26,234 nucleotides of DNA from a virus: the IMG/VR virus record IMGVR_UViG_3300046007_009330, positions 1 to 26,234 of that record; one strand, 5' to 3'. Below the pieces are notes generated by a model. That model did not search any database, was not told the origin of the DNA, and saw only the letters and a program-made list of their open reading frames with translations. The translations under genes were made by a program, and so were the position numbers. Within the stretch, counting starts at the first letter, position 1. Every line of letters begins with the position of its first letter. This document shows, piece by piece, positions 10,894-20,214 of the stretch.

Positions 10894-11453
10894 CCACCGA
10901 TCAAATCATTTTCATGCAAAAGCGCATCGGTGCCACGCCGGACGGCTTTTGGGGGCCGAAGTCGCAGGACAGGTGCCGCCTGTATTTGCGCTCGCTCATG
11001 CCTGCGAAGAATCCATGGCCCGCCAGCGATCAAACCAGCCTGACGAAGTTTTACGGCAAGCCCGGTGATGAGTCGCAACACACCGCGCTCGATGTCAGCG
11101 ACTTGGATGTGCGTTACGAAGGCAAACGCGTCAAAACCATCCGCTGCCACAAAAAAGTGGCCGCCAGTTTGAAGCGGGTGCTCGTCGCCATCTCGAAAGG
11201 TCCACACGCTTGGGTATTGCAACGATTCGCCGGATGCTACAACAACCGCCCGATGCGGGGCGGTAGCCTGCCCAGCCTGCATGCTAGAGCCGCCGCTACG
11301 GATTGGGATGCTGAAAATAACAGCTACAAAGCGAACTGGCCGCTCAGCGCATCAATGCCTCTCGAAGTCATGGAAGAGTTCTCGAAAGAAGGCTGGCTTT
11401 GCGCAGGCGCTTTCTGGAATTACGACGCCATGCATGCGCAAGCCACCCGCTAA
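10890..11453 (+). CDS. Endolysin: peptidoglycan-binding domain plus M15-type peptidase
   Basis: A 187-residue lysis enzyme. Residues 1-35 (FMQKRIGATPDGFWGPKSQD) match the short peptidoglycan-binding repeat with its typical ATPDGxWGPxS. The C-terminal domain carries the M15 (VanY/D,D-peptidase-like) zinc signature: SLHARAAATDWD with His131 and Asp138, and DAMHAQ with His182. These would cut peptide stems or cross-links in peptidoglycan. There is no signal peptide, so it depends on a holin for access. Its ATG overlaps the hydrolase stop (ATGA). Confidence 0.85.
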   Translation: MTTDQIIFMQKRIGATPDGFWGPKSQDRCRLYLRSLMPAKNPWPASDQTSLTKFYGKPGDESQHTALDVSDLDVRYEGKRVKTIRCHKKVAASLKRVLVAISKGPHAWVLQRFAGCYNNRPMRGGSLPSLHARAAATDWDAENNSYKANWPLSASMPLEVMEEFSKEGWLCAGAFWNYDAMHAQATR

Positions 11454-11467
11454 CCAAATACCACTTT

Positions 11468-12136
11468 ATGCCAGCTCCTACTCTCACAGGCATCTCACCC
11501 AGCATTGGCGCAATTGCGGGCGGCCAAACGGCAACTCTGACCGGCACAAACTTCACCGGCACCACGGGCGTCACCTTTGGGGGCGTTGCGGCCACGAATG
11601 TGACCGTCGTAAGCGCAACGGAGATTACTTGTGTGATTCCTGCGGGTAGCTTGGGCGTCGCCAGCGTGCTTGTGACCAACGGCAGCGGCACCAATGGGGC
11701 AAACTCGCTGTTTTTCTACATCCAGGCGCAACCGACTGACACTTACATCTACCTCAGAGGTGGTCGAGGAGACGGTTTTGTGCCTGAATGGACGGGAGTC
11801 GTCACGGAAGTCGAAACCGATGAAAAAAGCGACCCCTATCGGAACATTTTCCCTTCAAGCAAGGTCACGCCAGCATTCTCCACAGGCTCCATTGGCGGCA
11901 TCGCCGTATTTACTGCCACAAGCGCGAACGGTTTCTTGGACGACGGCGAAGCAATGACGGCGCTGAACCTATCCAACGTCAAAAGCCGCCTTTCCGATGA
12001 AGTTGGCGGGATCACTCCCCGCCAGTTTGATAAAGCTACAACGTGGCTCGTCTTTCTGTCCGCAAATGGCCTGACCTACGAGTTCCGAAAGGATTTGGTC
12101 ATTGGTCGGTCAAGCCAGCCGCGAGACAGCGACTAA
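11468..12136 (+). CDS. IPT/TIG-domain phage structural protein
   Basis: A 222-residue protein. Residues 1-90 form an Ig-like IPT/TIG domain: PTLTGISPSIGAIAGGQTAT, then LTGTNF, VTFGG and ITCVIPAGSLGVASVLVTN are the diagnostic strands. The remaining part is unrecognised but contains ordered-looking stretches (YIYLRGGRGDGF, TTWLVFLSANGL). Ig-like domains in phage usually decorate capsids or tails and bind carbohydrates weakly. The start is the ATG at 11468 with no Shine-Dalgarno. It opens the gene run that leads to the His-rich and glycosyltransferase-like genes. Confidence 0.75.
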   Translation: MPAPTLTGISPSIGAIAGGQTATLTGTNFTGTTGVTFGGVAATNVTVVSATEITCVIPAGSLGVASVLVTNGSGTNGANSLFFYIQAQPTDTYIYLRGGRGDGFVPEWTGVVTEVETDEKSDPYRNIFPSSKVTPAFSTGSIGGIAVFTATSANGFLDDGEAMTALNLSNVKSRLSDEVGGITPRQFDKATTWLVFLSANGLTYEFRKDLVIGRSSQPRDSD

Positions 12137-12145
12137 ACTACCGCC

Positions 12146-12949
12146 ATGCCCGTTACTTCTACATTTGATTGGATCGACACGCCCAAACCTACGGAGCGGG
12201 CGTTCAAGATCACAGCCAAAGAAGATCCATCGGACCAAATCCCTGATTTCATCAACCAGCGCATCACATGGGCGACTTGTCCGGGATGGATCAAGAAAGC
12301 CGAGAATGTACCGGTGAGCCTGCAAGGCTACACGCTCGTGCATGCCGCGAAGGCTGGATTCCAAACGCGAAACTTCTTCTTCGCCAAGACACGCACAACG
12401 GCGGAGCGCCGAACACCGTTTGAAACTACCTGGGTCACGCGGCCTTTCCCGTGGCCTACGGTGCTGCTCAAACTGTGGGCAGAGGAAGGCGTCATTCCAG
12501 TTTCCGCACTGTCGGCCGATGGGAATGTTCAAAGCGTTGGCGGCACGTTGTTTCGAGATCGGCACCGCCCTGGCGGATCATACCCGACCCTGTTCCGCAT
12601 TCAGCATTTCCTGTCTGAGCGCCCATTTCCCAAAAAGCGCCATCTTGCACCCATCCCAGACTCGATTTCATGGGAATGGGATGGCGTTCGAGGCTCCTTC
12701 CCGTCCTGCCTGCATCCCGGTGTTGTGGTCACGAACCAGTACACCACTGGCAATGTCGTCTTCGGCTTTGGGACGCCCACCAAAGAAATCGGCGGCGATC
12801 TGGTGCGCCAAGAATACCCTCCGACCGATATGGAGGATTGGGAACCTTTCGTCATCGAGGACACGCGCAACAATGTGCTCGGCACCTTGCAGCATCGCAT
12901 CGTCGTGAAGGCGTTTCCACCCATTGACGATCGGGAGGTGAAATCGTGA
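12146..12949 (+). CDS. Hypothetical phage protein, probably tail or tail-associated
   Basis: A 267-residue protein rich in aromatic residues and Pro, with many short beta-like segments (FQTRNFFFAKTRTT, WVTRPFPWPTVLLKLW, VVVTNQYTTGNVVFGFG). There is no signal peptide or membrane segment, and no enzymatic motif that I recognise. It starts ten bases after the IPT/TIG gene. Its stop overlaps the GTG start of the Pro-His protein, so the two are likely co-translated. The strong GGAGG at 12934-12938 inside its 3' end serves the next gene. Position suggests a virion component; function not known. Confidence 0.72.
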   Translation: MPVTSTFDWIDTPKPTERAFKITAKEDPSDQIPDFINQRITWATCPGWIKKAENVPVSLQGYTLVHAAKAGFQTRNFFFAKTRTTAERRTPFETTWVTRPFPWPTVLLKLWAEEGVIPVSALSADGNVQSVGGTLFRDRHRPGGSYPTLFRIQHFLSERPFPKKRHLAPIPDSISWEWDGVRGSFPSCLHPGVVVTNQYTTGNVVFGFGTPTKEIGGDLVRQEYPPTDMEDWEPFVIEDTRNNVLGTLQHRIVVKAFPPIDDREVKS

Positions 12950-13500
12950 TCGAAGCCGGGCGAGCCGTATCGCTTTTCGAGCAAGGCACGCACTCCATGA
13001 GTGGCAACGGGGCGCACACCTTCCAAGGTATCAGCCAGCCCTATGTGATTCATCAAGCGACACCGCTTCCGACTATTGAGCGGAAGCCGAACGTGTTGCA
13101 ACCGGCTGTTCCTCCGCCTGCGGGTAGCTCGCTGGGTGGTCTGTGGACCGGATGGCTGGTGAGTGTGGGGGTGCCGGTGACGCCTCCTGACCCGCACCCG
13201 CACCCGCATCCTGACCCGCACCCGCATCCTGACCCGCACCCGCATCCTCACCCGCACCCGCATCCTCACCCGCACCCGCATCCTCACCCTCATCCTCACC
13301 CTCATCCTCACCCGCACCCGCATCCTCACCCGCACCCGCATCCTCACCCGCATCCTCACCCGCACCCGCATCCTCACCCGCACCCGCATCCTCACCCTCA
13401 TCCTCACCCGCACCCGCATCCTCACCCGCACCCGCATCCTCACCCTCATCCTCACCCTCATCCTCCACCTCCTCACCCCCATCCCCATCCTCCCCCATGA
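12946..13500 (+). CDS. Protein with a C-terminal Pro-His dipeptide repeat tail
   Basis: A 184-residue protein. The first 80 residues are ordinary (AGRAVSLFEQGTHSMSGNGA, then a Pro-rich linker). From residue 81 to the end there is almost only alternating Pro and His: three Pro-Asp dipeptides near the start of the tail, about 43 Pro-His dipeptides, then PPPP and three more His. Such a tail would bind transition metals (Ni, Zn, Cu, Co, Fe) and be extended. It starts with GTG at 12946, supported by GGGAGG seven bases upstream, and overlaps the genes on both sides. The tail is encoded by in-frame 6/12/18-base DNA repeats, so its length probably varies. Metal binding is inferred from composition; the biological role is unknown. 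Confidence 0.75.
   Translation: MIEAGRAVSLFEQGTHSMSGNGAHTFQGISQPYVIHQATPLPTIERKPNVLQPAVPPPAGSSLGGLWTGWLVSVGVPVTPPDPHPHPHPDPHPHPDPHPHPHPHPHPHPHPHPHPHPHPHPHPHPHPHPHPHPHPHPHPHPHPHPHPHPHPHPHPHPHPHPHPHPHPHPHPHPPPPHPHPHPPP
13186..13461 (+). repeat. Hexamer-based tandem repeat encoding Pro-His
   Basis: Forty-six consecutive hexamers of the form CC(G/T)(C/G)A(C/T). Most are arranged in an 18-base unit (CCGCAC, CCGCAT, CCTCAC), with interspersed 12-base blocks of CCTCAT plus CCTCAC. The first, fifth and eighth hexamers are CCTGAC and encode Asp in place of His. Every unit is a multiple of three bases, so slippage or recombination changes protein length without breaking the frame. One strand is very C-rich and its complement G-rich. 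The opposite strand is also open and would read as Arg-Val/Met repeats, which I treat as a shadow. Confidence 0.95.
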
Positions 13501-14072
13501 TACATCCGGTCATTCCATTGGATCTACCTTCCACGGCCAGGGTCGTTTTGGTCGGGAATGGTCCCTCGTTGCTGGCGGCTGCCAAGGGCAACGACATTGA
13601 CGCTTTTGATGAGGTGGTGAGGTTCAATCGATTCAAACTGCGAGGTTTTGAAGTTCACACAGGGACGCGCACGACGCTCTGGAGCACGTTTGGACATGGC
13701 TATCTTCCTGGCGACGAGGATGTGAGGCCGGAGCGCATGATCTTTGTCTATGGGGAACGCGGCGAGCCTGCTTATCAGCCCCAGGAGATTTATCGCATTC
13801 CGAAGGCGTTCTACAATGAACAGTGGGAACGGCTGAAAAATCAGGCAAAACGCCCGTGCAGCATTAGTAGCGGTTTCGTGGTCACAATGTGGCTGCTCAA
13901 TGTGGTTGGGTTGGAACAGGTGACGCTGGCCGGGTTCGATCATTTTCGCAAAGACTTCAGCAACCAACACCATTATTACAACCCACGAGGCTACGGACGT
14001 CCGCCTGAGATGGCTGGCGATGCCGAAGCGGAATTGCTGGACGAACTGGGGGAAAAGATCATTAGATTATGA
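13497..14072 (+). CDS. GT29 (sialyltransferase)-like protein, stand-alone, possibly inactive
   Basis: A 191-residue protein with the sialyltransferase-type motifs of family GT29. The L-like motif is VVLVGNGPSLL, then IDAFDEVVRFNRF, GFEVHTGTRTT (residues 16-60). The S-like motif is SISSGFVVTMWLL, then VTLAGFDHF (122-150). HHYYN at 158-162 matches motif III. By hand alignment to the fused domain downstream, the histidine of the VS motif (H-x4-E) is Met172 here while Glu177 is kept, so the catalytic base of known GT29 enzymes may be missing. There is no membrane anchor, unlike eukaryotic relatives. Start and stop both overlap neighbours. Donor and acceptor sugars are unknown; a role in modifying host or virion glycans is inferred. 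Confidence 0.75.
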   Translation: MIHPVIPLDLPSTARVVLVGNGPSLLAAAKGNDIDAFDEVVRFNRFKLRGFEVHTGTRTTLWSTFGHGYLPGDEDVRPERMIFVYGERGEPAYQPQEIYRIPKAFYNEQWERLKNQAKRPCSISSGFVVTMWLLNVVGLEQVTLAGFDHFRKDFSNQHHYYNPRGYGRPPEMAGDAEAELLDELGEKIIRL

Positions 14073-15157
14073 ACGAACTCGATAAATACTTGGGGATCTA
14101 TGGCTCCGAAGGACTGCCTGGTTACGGGCATAGCAACCATGGTGCGCGTTCGATTGCTTTTCTTGAGAAATGGCAACCTCGTTCATTGGTGGACGTGGGT
14201 TGTGGTTTTAACGAATATTGCCAAGCTATCCGGCAGAAATTCAGCATTCGGGCCGTTGGCGTCGATTTTGCCTGTCCTGGCGCTGACATTAAAGCCGCTG
14301 CGACCTCTCTACCTTTTGCTGACCAGGAATTTGATGTTTTGACGTCGTTCGATTGCTTGGAGCATCTGTTGCCAGCGGAAGTTGAGGTGGCTTTGCTGGA
14401 GATGGCGCGGGTGAGTGCCCGCTTTGTATTCTCGATTTCTTATGCTCCCTCTAAATGCCGGTGGAAAGGACAAGGCCTGCATCCAACTGTCCATAGTGAG
14501 CAGTGGTGGATCTCCCAAATCATGCGAGCTGGCGGGGCAAAATTGGTGAAGGTGGGCAAGTTTTTAACGGGTGTCTGGCAGCGAAGGTTGCCGATAAAGC
14601 CGGGGGACTCCGTGGTGCTTGTTGGCAATGGTCCGTCGGTATTTCAATCCACCCGTGGGAAAATGATTGATGAATTTGATCACATCGTTCGGTTCAATCG
14701 TTTTGCGACTGCAGGTTTTGAGCGGTGGGTCGGCTCTCGCACGACTCTTTGGTCCGCCACGCCTTTAGCAGGGAAAGATGGCATCCGCCATGATGAGTGC
14801 TTGTCCATCAATGAAGGTGCGTTGGTTGGGGTGGCGTCTAACGTGCATGATGTGCCGGACCATTACCGACGCGAGGTGACAGAAGCCTTGTGCCAAAGAG
14901 CGCAGTGGATGACGGGATTTAGAACCGATAGCCGCAGGCGGATCAAACCTTCGTCTGGCCTGCTGGTGATCGCGTATTTAGCGGAAATTGTTGGAGTTCA
15001 CGTTTTGCACGCTGTGGGCTTTGATCATTTCGCGGGCACAATTGCCCATTATTGGGATACCGATCATGGGATTGCTGGGGACGCGTCTCACGACGGGCAA
15101 GTCGAGTCGCGCTTTTTTCAAGATTTGGTTTCCTCCGGTCGGGTTGTTTTACTGTGA
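14069..15157 (+). CDS. SAM methyltransferase fused to GT29 (sialyltransferase)-like domain
   Basis: A 362-residue two-domain protein. Residues of about 30-125 are a class I SAM-dependent methyltransferase: SLVDVGCGF (motif I, 39-47), VGVDFA (63-68), SLPFADQEFDVLTSFDCLEHL. Residues of about 178-362 are GT29-like: SVVLVGNGPSVF, IDEFDHIVRFNRF, GFERWVGSRTT, then KPSSGLLVIAYLA and HAVGFDHF. HYWD (327-330) and the H-x4-E motif (His341, Glu346) are complete, unlike in the upstream paralogue. A plausible activity is transfer of an acidic sugar plus methylation of the product, on surface glycans or phage components; this is inference. Its ATG overlaps the preceding stop, and its last nine bases overlap the convergent minus-strand gene. 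Confidence 0.82.
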   Translation: MNELDKYLGIYGSEGLPGYGHSNHGARSIAFLEKWQPRSLVDVGCGFNEYCQAIRQKFSIRAVGVDFACPGADIKAAATSLPFADQEFDVLTSFDCLEHLLPAEVEVALLEMARVSARFVFSISYAPSKCRWKGQGLHPTVHSEQWWISQIMRAGGAKLVKVGKFLTGVWQRRLPIKPGDSVVLVGNGPSVFQSTRGKMIDEFDHIVRFNRFATAGFERWVGSRTTLWSATPLAGKDGIRHDECLSINEGALVGVASNVHDVPDHYRREVTEALCQRAQWMTGFRTDSRRRIKPSSGLLVIAYLAEIVGVHVLHAVGFDHFAGTIAHYWDTDHGIAGDASHDGQVESRFFQDLVSSGRVVLL

Positions 15158-17678: not shown

Positions 17679-19262
17679 ATGGCTTACAACTCCGATTCCG
17701 TTGTTCAAACTCTTGCAGCCGCCCTCGCGGCTGATCCCTCCGTCGTCGCCAAGGTCAACTCCAAGCACCTCCGCGCAGGTGCCCGCTCGGTTGACGACTT
17801 TTCCATCTTTGAAGGGCCGGAGAAATCCGGCAAACCCATCATCGTTCGCAGCGACCTCGCAGGCGTGGGCGCTGGCGACGAAGTGAAATTCACCGTCGTC
17901 TCGCAGCCTCGCGGCGCTGGCGTCCGTGGTGAAGCCGAGCTTCGCGGTAATGAAAGTTCCATCACGCTCTCGACCTTCGGGTGCAAAGTGGACTACTGGC
18001 GCGACGCCGTGAAGTTCACCAAGAAAGAACTTCGCTTCCTCGCCGTGGGTGGTTCCCTGCGTGCCGTCGTGCTCGACATGATGAAGGTCAAGATGGGCCG
18101 CAAGCGCATGAACGACATGAAGATGGCGTTCAAGCTGCAAGCCAACGGCAACATCATCTACCCGAATGGCCGCAAGAGCTTTGCGACGCTTACCGCTCTC
18201 GACAGCCTGACGCCCTCCGGCATCACGGATGCAGTGCCGCAGTTCATTCGCCAAGGTGGCAAGGCTACCATCGTGAAGAACAAGCACGGCAGCCCGGTTC
18301 ACAAGCCGATCCTGTACATGGTTGATTCCGCTGGCGCGAACGTCAAAAACTCCTCCAGCTACGAACTTGCCGTCCAGAATGGCGATGTGCGCGGCGAAGG
18401 CAACGCCGCTTTCAATGGCATGCTTCGCGACTGGAATGGCGTCGGCCTCTTCGAGCATACTTCGGTCGATCCCGAGTATGACCAGATCGCCGACCCGCTG
18501 GCCCCTCGTGCGCTGCTTTCCACCGGCTTTGGCGTCGATAGCGCCTCGGCTGCCTGCGTCATCAAGAGCCACGCCTCGGACACCAAGACGCCTTACACGG
18601 CTTGGCTCGGTGGCTATGACTACGAATGGTATGAAGGCCAGAAGACCGACACGGCTACGACCGCCCCCGGTGGCGTCGCTTGGACCACTTGGTATGCAGC
18701 CATCACGGGCGCGACCTATTACGCCTGGGTTCGCAATCCAGACGGCAGCGTGGGCTTTGTGTCTTGGGTCGGCTCCAACAACAACGGCAACCGGATCACC
18801 ATCACGGCCATCCTGAACCCGGACAACACGAACGACGCCTCCGGCCTCGGCGTGGACACCCTGGGCAACTTCGTGGCGACCGGCGACACCTGGGGCCTCA
18901 ACACCGCAGGCAATGCCTACACTCGTGCAGTGGGCGGCGCTGGTGCTACCTCGAACTGCTCGGCGGATGTGGTCTGGACGGCTGAATTTGATGCCGGTGC
19001 CTACATCATCCCCTGCAACGCCAATGGCGCGGTGGATATGTCCAGCCTCATGCTCGGACAGGAAGCTGCCGTTCGTGCCTACGTCGGAGACGACGAGCTG
19101 ATCGGCGACTCTGACGACTACAAGTTCGTCAACGGCGGTGGCTACGAAACCATCTACGGTCAGGCCCCTTGCCGCCGCACGGATGGCAAGACGGCTGGTT
19201 ACAGCCTCCTGCGCCACTCTGGACAGCACCCCGGCCTCGAAGTGCCCACCCTGTCCGCGTAA
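17679..19262 (+). CDS. Major capsid protein, N4-gp56 type
   Basis: A 527-residue capsid protein. The N-terminal half matches the N4-gp56 family: DDFSIFEGPEKSGKPIIVRS, then DLAGVGAGDEVKFTVVSQPR, GVRGEAELRGNESSITLSTF, a long helix with KKELRFL and RMNDMKMAF, and KPILYMVD. The end of the family pattern returns at SSLMLGQEAAVRAYVGDDEL (about 455-475). Between them, residues of about 305-440 form a Gly/Thr/Trp-rich beta region (YEWYEGQKTDT, YYAWVRNPDGSVGFVSWVG) that makes the protein longer than typical family members, perhaps an inserted surface domain. A scaffold-like gene lies before it and a strong terminator after it, consistent with very high expression. Confidence 0.88.
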   Translation: MAYNSDSVVQTLAAALAADPSVVAKVNSKHLRAGARSVDDFSIFEGPEKSGKPIIVRSDLAGVGAGDEVKFTVVSQPRGAGVRGEAELRGNESSITLSTFGCKVDYWRDAVKFTKKELRFLAVGGSLRAVVLDMMKVKMGRKRMNDMKMAFKLQANGNIIYPNGRKSFATLTALDSLTPSGITDAVPQFIRQGGKATIVKNKHGSPVHKPILYMVDSAGANVKNSSSYELAVQNGDVRGEGNAAFNGMLRDWNGVGLFEHTSVDPEYDQIADPLAPRALLSTGFGVDSASAACVIKSHASDTKTPYTAWLGGYDYEWYEGQKTDTATTAPGGVAWTTWYAAITGATYYAWVRNPDGSVGFVSWVGSNNNGNRITITAILNPDNTNDASGLGVDTLGNFVATGDTWGLNTAGNAYTRAVGGAGATSNCSADVVWTAEFDAGAYIIPCNANGAVDMSSLMLGQEAAVRAYVGDDELIGDSDDYKFVNGGGYETIYGQAPCRRTDGKTAGYSLLRHSGQHPGLEVPTLSA

Positions 19263-19273
19263 ACGAACCTCAC

Positions 19274-19306
19274 GCCTGCCCGGCGTCAAAACCGGGCAGG
19301 CTTTTT
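19274..19306 (+). terminator. Intrinsic terminator after the major capsid gene
   Basis: GCCTGCCCGG (19274-19283) and CCGGGCAGGC (19292-19301) form a perfect ten-pair GC-rich stem with an eight-base loop, followed by TTTTT. It begins 11 bases after the capsid stop codon. It would end or attenuate the capsid transcript and reduce expression of the downstream head genes. Confidence 0.92.
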
Positions 19307-19314
19307 CCTTTCCC

Positions 19315-20214
19315 ATGAGCACCAAGCCCACCACACCCACCCTTCCGTCACGCATTGATTCCTCGATGCTGGCGAAATACCTCAACGTTGGCGAGTCCGT
19401 CGTCATCGTTAAACTGCTCGGCATCGGCAATACAGGAGCCTATGAGTTCCGTGACCGAGCCAGCCGCATTTACATTTTCCGTTGGGATACTCAGCAAGGC
19501 GGCCACGTTCTGCGCGTGCCACTGACTCTTTGGAACGCCGACAAGGGCCGCATTGCCCACGACATCATGGACCAGCGTCGATTGATGCACGCAATGGTGG
19601 TGACGGTCGAGGTGCCAACCGCAGAAGCCACGTCACCCATCAAGGAACTGATCGACGCAATGGTCAATGATCCCGAGTATGCTTGGGGATGGCATTGCAA
19701 CATTACGATGGCGGCCCATGACTCAGGAGCGAATCCGCATGACGCCCTCAATCGGGGTGCGGCGCTGTTTCTCAAACTGCTGAGCGATGGCCGTGTCGAT
19801 ACGACCACGCATCCCGCCTACGCTCAGACGCAAGAAACGACCACTTCAAGCCAGGGAGAATTGGATTCCAGCGAGGCCCATAACCTCGCCTCCGCAGGTT
19901 CGATTCCTGCCCCTGACACCACTTCCACCCCCGAAATGGACGCAACGGAGACGAAAAGCGCCCCTAACGTGGTAGGGCAGGGCGTGGAAGCGCCCGTTGC
20001 GTCCGCCTCGGCTCCTTCTGCTCAGATCATGCACGGGGACAAGCCCATGTTCTCCGCCGCCTGGGACAAGCTCGATGCGCCCATGCGGATCAAAGCCTTG
20101 GCCGCTTTGCTCGACACCGACGAGGAAACGCTCAAAGCCGCTATTCAAGACCCACTTTCGACCGTGGAACTCGGCCATGCTGGCTGGGTGAAGCGTCGTG
20201 AACCTCAAGCCTAA
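19315..20214 (+). CDS. Hypothetical head-region protein containing a translated tRNA-like segment
   Basis: A 299-residue protein just after the capsid terminator. Residues 1-165 look like one folded domain (IDSSMLAKYLNVGESVVIVK, YEFRDRASRIYIFRWDTQQG, AWGWHCNITMAAHDSG). Residues of about 166-235 are a Thr/Ser/Ala/Pro-rich linker, and residues of about 179-203 are the in-frame translation of a tRNA-Met-like sequence (SSEAHNLASAGSIPAPDTT). A small helical C-terminal domain follows (MFSAAWDKLDAPMRIKALAA). The frame is open throughout, so the tRNA-like DNA has not broken the gene. No family is recognised; the position suggests a minor head protein. Confidence 0.75.
   Translation: MSTKPTTPTLPSRIDSSMLAKYLNVGESVVIVKLLGIGNTGAYEFRDRASRIYIFRWDTQQGGHVLRVPLTLWNADKGRIAHDIMDQRRLMHAMVVTVEVPTAEATSPIKELIDAMVNDPEYAWGWHCNITMAAHDSGANPHDALNRGAALFLKLLSDGRVDTTTHPAYAQTQETTTSSQGELDSSEAHNLASAGSIPAPDTTSTPEMDATETKSAPNVVGQGVEAPVASASAPSAQIMHGDKPMFSAAWDKLDAPMRIKALAALLDTDEETLKAAIQDPLSTVELGHAGWVKRREPQA
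19850..19921 (+). tRNA. tRNA-Met(CAU)-like sequence, D-arm degenerate, inside a coding region
   Basis: The 3' half is canonical. Anticodon stem GCGAGG (19871-19876) pairs with CCTCGC (19884-19889) around a seven-base loop CCCATAA with anticodon CAT. T-stem GCAGG (19894-19898) pairs with CCTGC (19906-19910) around TTCGATT. These are followed by CCCTGAC, discriminator A and CCA (19919-19921). The 5' half is weaker: GCCAGGG (19850-19856) pairs with the acceptor except for one C-A mismatch, and a D-loop-like AATTGGA (19859-19865) remains without a normal D-stem. Base 33 is C instead of the near-universal T. It is most likely a tRNA-derived remnant; a functional tRNA is less likely. Confidence 0.45.

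Follow-up and report, generated by a model that had tools for sequence, protein, structure and literature searches.

Background

What is known of the sialyltransferase family (GT29) comes mainly from animals. The phage DNA analysed here carries two adjacent genes, Orf A and Orf B, that an earlier note had described from their sequence as a GT29-like tandem, the second joined to a methyltransferase, and this raises the question of what such a pair would do for a phage and on which molecule it would act. By linking profile searches, predicted structures, and gene neighbourhoods of related loci, we offer a graded answer in which a phage-coded repeat protein is the tentatively favoured acceptor.

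Results and discussion

Gene arrangement of the window

The window, by which we mean the whole stretch of DNA analysed (26,234 bases), is a complete, linear IMG/VR record and is probably a fragment. Matches to internal virion protein, portal, endolysin, capsid, and terminase genes characterise it as a podovirus-like phage. Four of its ORFs are tightly coupled (Table 1), with 4-base overlaps between the HP-repeat ORF and Orf A and between Orf A and Orf B; the conserved ORF upstream overlaps the HP-repeat ORF as well. Mis-assembly of the window was judged unlikely, given that a second IMG/VR record, which may stem from the same population, contains a near-identical stretch.

Table 1. Features of the GT29 module and its borders, in window positions.
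Feature	Position	Strand	Evidence or remark
TIG (Ig-like) domain protein, candidate surface protein	11399..12136	+	Upstream of module; Pfam TIG 52.9 bits
Conserved protein	12146..12949	+	In three related phages, lies ahead of repeat protein and GT29; phmmer matches in G009 and G012
Pro-rich repeat protein with (His-Pro)n tract, GTG start	12946..13500	+	Proposed partner or substrate
Tandem DNA repeat encoding (HP)n	13190..13496	+	Tandem Repeats Finder
Orf A, stand-alone GT29-family protein, 191 aa	13497..14072	+	Pfam GT29, AlphaFold, PDB matches, dN/dS
Orf B, methyltransferase-GT29 fusion, 362 aa	14069..15157	+	Pfam Methyltransf_11 and GT29; AlphaFold, Foldseek
Class I SAM methyltransferase domain, Orf B	14069..14587	+	Pfam; alignment of five relatives
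GT29 domain, Orf B	14606..15154	+	L motif about 14615-14764
Convergent gene, N-terminal signal-like segment	15149..15943	-	Borders module; also adjoins methyltransferase-GT29 gene in G012

Family membership and predicted fold

Profile searches and predicted structures confirm Orf A and Orf B as GT29-family proteins. Against a curated Pfam cut-off of 23 bits, PF00777 (GT29) matched Orf A with 50.9 bits (E 1.8e-13) and Orf B with 57.2 bits (E 2.2e-15); the identical search of 14 control genomes matched none of them. The L, S, and III sialylmotifs were found in both proteins, the S motif of Orf B reading PSSG and its motif III AHYWD. For the AlphaFold model of Orf A (pLDDT 92.1, pTM 0.90), all 30 PDB matches returned by Foldseek with E up to 0.001 were GT29 structures, the best being 2wnb (E 5e-9, TM 0.71 by query length). 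GT29 structures also lead the matches of the Orf B model (pLDDT 79, with the first 22 residues poor), which include SAM methyltransferase structures too. Both predicted structures have the GT29 fold (GT-A variant 2). When 14 phage GT29 domains were combined in a profile, it matched porcine ST3Gal1 over its whole length, VS motif included (E 1.9e-19), whereas its match to GT42 (Cst-II) is far weaker (E 3e-4). Membership of GT42, which was also absent from the Foldseek matches listed, was rejected on these grounds, and a chance motif match was rejected by profile, fold, and the existence of relatives. The tandem claimed by the earlier note is thereby borne out by profile and by predicted structure.

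With the eukaryotic enzymes ST3Gal1, ST6GalNAc2, ST6Gal1, and ST8SiaIII, both phage proteins have in common the profile family, the fold, and the L, S, and III motifs. The VS motif is shared by Orf B, whereas its catalytic histidine is absent from Orf A. The phage domains are also shorter (about 185-190 residues, versus about 275-300 in eukaryotes), and the phage proteins are without an obvious membrane anchor and come with a fused or coupled methyltransferase. To our knowledge, characterised eukaryotic GT29 enzymes act on glycans and not on protein directly.

Distribution and movement of GT29 genes

A scan of IMG/VR gave at least 179 loci with GT29 relatives, 80 of which were kept, and a separate clade-specific scan gave further loci. 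Since a recognisable terminase was present in about half of the records examined (22/46), many of them are tailed phages. Bacterial GT29 enzymes of Proteobacteria were reported in 2018 (PMC5811610), so the contrast that had been drawn with a family of the eukaryotic Golgi no longer holds in that form. Public data also include A0A6J5NLG3, annotated as 'Glycosyl transferase family 29 [uncultured Caudovirales phage]' with no context given. Consequently, the presence of GT29 in phages and in bacteria is already known. Among the annotated phage genomes searched, GT29 occurred only in the uncultured huge phage LR756508 (484 kb), where four GT29 ORFs lie beside a NeuB-like gene (L009; LR756508.1 316054-328545) and also adjoin GDP-mannose dehydratase-like and GDP-fucose synthase-like genes. 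In sampled prokaryotes the family is scarce (5/289 Verrucomicrobiota genomes), and the closest cellular relative found, L096, is a Verrucomicrobiota protein that joins a methyltransferase, a GT29, and a GT9 domain.

In a tree of 71 domains, Orf A and Orf B share a clade that comprises ten rows of phage and bacterial origin and to which L026 attaches weakly; the two proteins form separate branches within it, that of Orf B being long. Orf A is 87% identical to its copy in phage G009, compared with 56% for the capsid proteins (window 13497-15157 versus 17679-19262), and Orf A and Orf B have a G+C content of 0.53 versus 0.59 for the window. This difference in identity and the lower G+C suggest that the GT29 gene passes from phage to phage.

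Loss of the catalytic histidine in Orf A

The VS-motif histidine is the catalytic base of characterised GT29 enzymes (PMC10225777). It is retained in 67 of 72 distinct GT29 domains, including that of Orf B, whose VS motif SHDGQVE contains His341 (codon 15089-15091) and aligns with HDGDFE of ST3Gal1. In Orf A it is replaced by Met172 (codon 14010-14012), and the ortholog at L015 also has methionine; Orf A and Orf B are thus not equivalent, as they had been taken to be. Comparison of Orf A with its 87%-identical relative gave dN 0.09 and dS 1.1 (dN/dS about 0.08), as expected of a maintained coding gene. Orf A is under strong purifying selection although its catalytic histidine has been replaced, and a decaying pseudogene was rejected by the same ratio. 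As a GT29 homolog, Orf A may be an accessory paralog or may employ another mechanism, and the label sialyltransferase would be premature for it.

Seven consecutive GT29 ORFs, with methyltransferase genes among them, were observed at L045 1937-7773 (IMGVR_UViG_3300035698_015077); the VS histidine is absent in two of the seven.

The methyltransferase as a recurrent partner

Methyltransf_11 matched residues 41-115 of Orf B with 39.7 bits against a cut-off of 21.2, and an alignment of five relatives displayed motif I (VDVGCG) together with a conserved LHPTV..WW. By profile, motif I, and predicted fold, the N-terminal part of Orf B is a class I SAM methyltransferase, in agreement with the earlier claim of a methyltransferase preceding the second GT29 domain in the same chain.

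A methyltransferase was fused to, or located within 200 bases of, 22 of 73 distinct GT29 ORFs (7 fused and 15 nearby). N-terminal fusions involve Methyltransf_11-type domains (Orf B, L017, L020, and L227), Methyltransf_24 (L025 and L096), or FkbM (L104 and L224), while L029 and L233 have a C-terminal methyltransferase. At L015, the Orf A ortholog (87% identical) is followed by a Methyltransf_24 ORF in the place of Orf B. Because several Pfam methyltransferase families are found fused at either end or abutting, the partner is recurrent and its family exchangeable. Adjacency by itself is moderate evidence of a link, given that glycan loci commonly hold methyltransferase genes; repeated fusion is stronger.

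Repeat proteins beside GT29

Codons for histidine and proline in the (HP)n tract differ mostly at third positions, which supports translation in this frame. The N-terminal part of the protein resembles that of the (PPSSS)n protein which occupies the equivalent position in phage G012, and L015 has an HP-repeat protein in the corresponding position. Within the window's clade, the repeats preceding GT29 are (HP)n in the window and L015, (SSTPPP)n in L017, (SSSPPP)n in L227, and (PPSSS)n in L025. L020 and its relatives have a (PTPDVS)n protein two genes upstream of GT29, with a GT8 gene between; a (PT)n ORF overlaps in L224, and L226 has a divergent (PT)n neighbour. When, as a strict rule, only abutting neighbours on the same strand with a P/S/T/H content of at least 80% over 40 residues are counted, a repeat protein adjoins GT29 in 5/10 phage lineages of the window's clade versus 1/55 other phage GT29 ORFs, with a p of 2e-4 that serves as a guide only, the lineages having been grouped after the data were seen; half of the ten lineages are without such a neighbour by this rule.

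Ig-like domains occur in two of the longer repeat proteins, one of which also has a beta-propeller; this is as expected of surface proteins, and we regard a virion role of the repeat proteins as putative; a PHROGs search returned no structural name for them. The (HP)n tract of the window contains neither serine nor threonine, so any O-linked sugar would have to be attached elsewhere.

Both ends of contig IMGVR_UViG_3300010885_047290 (L108 1-735 and L017 2-412) lie inside a Ser/Thr/Pro-rich repeat ORF and look as if the assembly broke within the repeat.

Donor-sugar genes

CMP-sugar synthetase (PF02348) was found in 20/45 GT29 virus records versus 0/27 control contigs without GT29, which belong to one terminase lineage and are somewhat shorter than the GT29 records (Fisher p 1.7e-5; 1.6e-4 after rough removal of near-duplicates). 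A NeuB gene is present in 10/47 GT29 records, and GT29, CMP-synthetase, and NeuB are contiguous in G044 and G046. This context supports a CMP-activated acidic donor for the GT29 phage family as a whole. None of the contigs searched from the window's clade, mostly fragments, carries NeuB or CMP-sugar synthetase, and for this clade we infer a donor supplied by the host. The earlier proposal, in which an acidic sugar is combined with a methyl group, thus gains from these genes in other GT29 phages and from the recurring methyltransferase, but not from donor genes in the window's own clade.

One phage operon (L122 5455-11683; IMGVR_UViG_3300031802_000380) was seen to combine sulfotransferase, GT2, GT29, CMP-sugar synthetase, NeuB, Methyltransf_24, GT4-like, and PIG-L-like genes.

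Proposed acceptor and alternatives

The earlier note left the target between a host surface glycan and a virion component; the coupled gene favours the phage repeat protein, and a host glycan persists as its rival. Since related viruses keep the trio of repeat protein, GT29, and methyltransferase with different parts, we propose, at somewhat less than an even chance, a glycosyl- and methyl-tailoring module that acts on the coupled repeat protein, probably part of the virion, with a donor taken from the host; we infer the donor and the acceptor, as well as the site of methylation. The upstream protein, the Pro-rich repeat protein, Orf A, and Orf B would be produced as a translationally coupled module. 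Orf B, with His341 serving as base in the inverting mechanism usual for GT29, would take an acidic keto-sugar, either Kdo or a nonulosonic acid, from the CMP-activated pool of the host and attach it to the repeat protein or to a glycan that the protein carries; the fused methyltransferase would methylate the acceptor or the sugar so attached. Orf A, being without the base, might be an acceptor-binding or specificity subunit or work by an altered mechanism. The likeliest product of the modification would be a late protein of the virion surface, whose charged, methyl-capped coat could alter adsorption or shield the particle.

That a host surface glycan (LPS core, O-antigen, or capsule) is modified late in infection is possible, if on the doubtful side. 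GT29 would then add Kdo or a nonulosonic acid and the methyltransferase would cap it, with the effect that related phages or released progeny stop binding to the cell or to debris. CMP-Kdo is held by all Gram-negative cells with LPS, other GT29 phages carry polysaccharide-like cassettes (sulfotransferase, GT2, GT4-like, PIG-L-like, NeuB, and CMP-synthetase), and the fusion of bacterial L096 to a heptosyltransferase-type GT9 points to an LPS-type product. In the window, however, neither a flippase nor a polysaccharide gene was seen, and the coupled neighbours in its clade are repeat, Ig-like, or beta-propeller proteins. We consider this alternative especially serious for those GT29 phages that have such cassettes.

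It is improbable that the chemistry has changed altogether, such that Orf A, and perhaps Orf B, would bind a glycan or nucleotide without transfer and the methyltransferase alone would be active, for example on the repeat histidines. While the VS histidine is lost in Orf A and its ortholog, precisely in the phages with (HP)n rather than Ser/Thr repeats, these two are close in Orf A (87% at the amino acid level) and the correlation may represent one event; Orf B also keeps all GT29 motifs including the VS histidine, and methyltransferase partners occur as well in clade members with Ser/Thr-Pro repeats. Least probable is that the gene pair is transient cargo out of a glycan locus of the host, with no specific phage role and with the repeats alongside by chance: the lower G+C and the apparent movement between phages would suit it, but purifying selection on Orf A, occupation of the same position in three related phages, and recurrence of repeat neighbours across lineages argue against it.

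Relation to known systems

PMC5811610 makes no mention of phages or viruses in its text; its Proteobacteria enzymes share with ours a prokaryotic GT29 outside the Golgi context, and we saw there neither a methyltransferase fusion nor a coupling to repeat proteins. Maf enzymes attach Neu5Ac or Kdo directly to flagellin Ser/Thr (PMC11339370). The proposed likeness to Maf_flag10, a CMP-nonulosonate or CMP-Kdo donor with a cytoplasmic protein acceptor, concerns the way of working only; the central domain of Maf is sialyltransferase-like, but Maf belongs to another Pfam family, has three domains, and uses flagellin as acceptor, and a Pfam scan at E up to 0.1 gave no Maf_flag10 match for Orf A or Orf B. 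Phage capsids are glycosylated, according to PMC11256854 (citing Freeman 2023), in which virion-protein glycans of mycobacteriophages Che8 and Rita, comparable with those proposed here, are attributed to phage-coded glycosyltransferases. The sialyltransferases of a coccolithovirus, myxoma virus, and a herpesvirus (PMC5371807, PMC4338283) are likewise virus-coded GT29/sialyltransferases, but act in eukaryotic hosts. A search of an incomplete literature library found no description of a methyltransferase-GT29 fusion, an exchangeable methyltransferase, or repeat-protein coupling, and nothing relevant on mucin-like glycosylation in phages. For Che8 and Rita, we know of no methyltransferase pairing or repeat acceptor.

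Reading the clade more broadly, it is quite conceivable, if far from assured, that these genes constitute a compact phage 'mucin' module, in which a Pro-rich, mostly Ser/Thr virion repeat protein is combined with GT29 and an exchangeable methyltransferase and would receive methylated acidic sugars from the host CMP-sugar pool; the window would be the variant with a His-Pro repeat and an additional, catalytically altered GT29 paralog. If true, viruses of prokaryotes would have in such a module their own counterpart of sialylated mucins. A large phage branch of GT29 that has methyltransferases as partners and is accompanied by CMP-sugar genes in some phages and by neighbouring repeat proteins in others would extend the biology of the family, and would offer enzymes for protein sialylation that are small, soluble, and presumably cytoplasmic. 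Such a branch would also open to testing the idea that there are environmental phages which add acidic sugars to surface proteins of their own.

Host and other observations

The convergent gene has homologs in 2/289 Verrucomicrobiota genomes and marginal matches in 2/299 Pseudomonadota, the former being a weak hint at Verrucomicrobiota as host phylum. ARAGORN reported a tRNA-Met (CAT) at window positions 19850-19921, within ORF 19138-20214.
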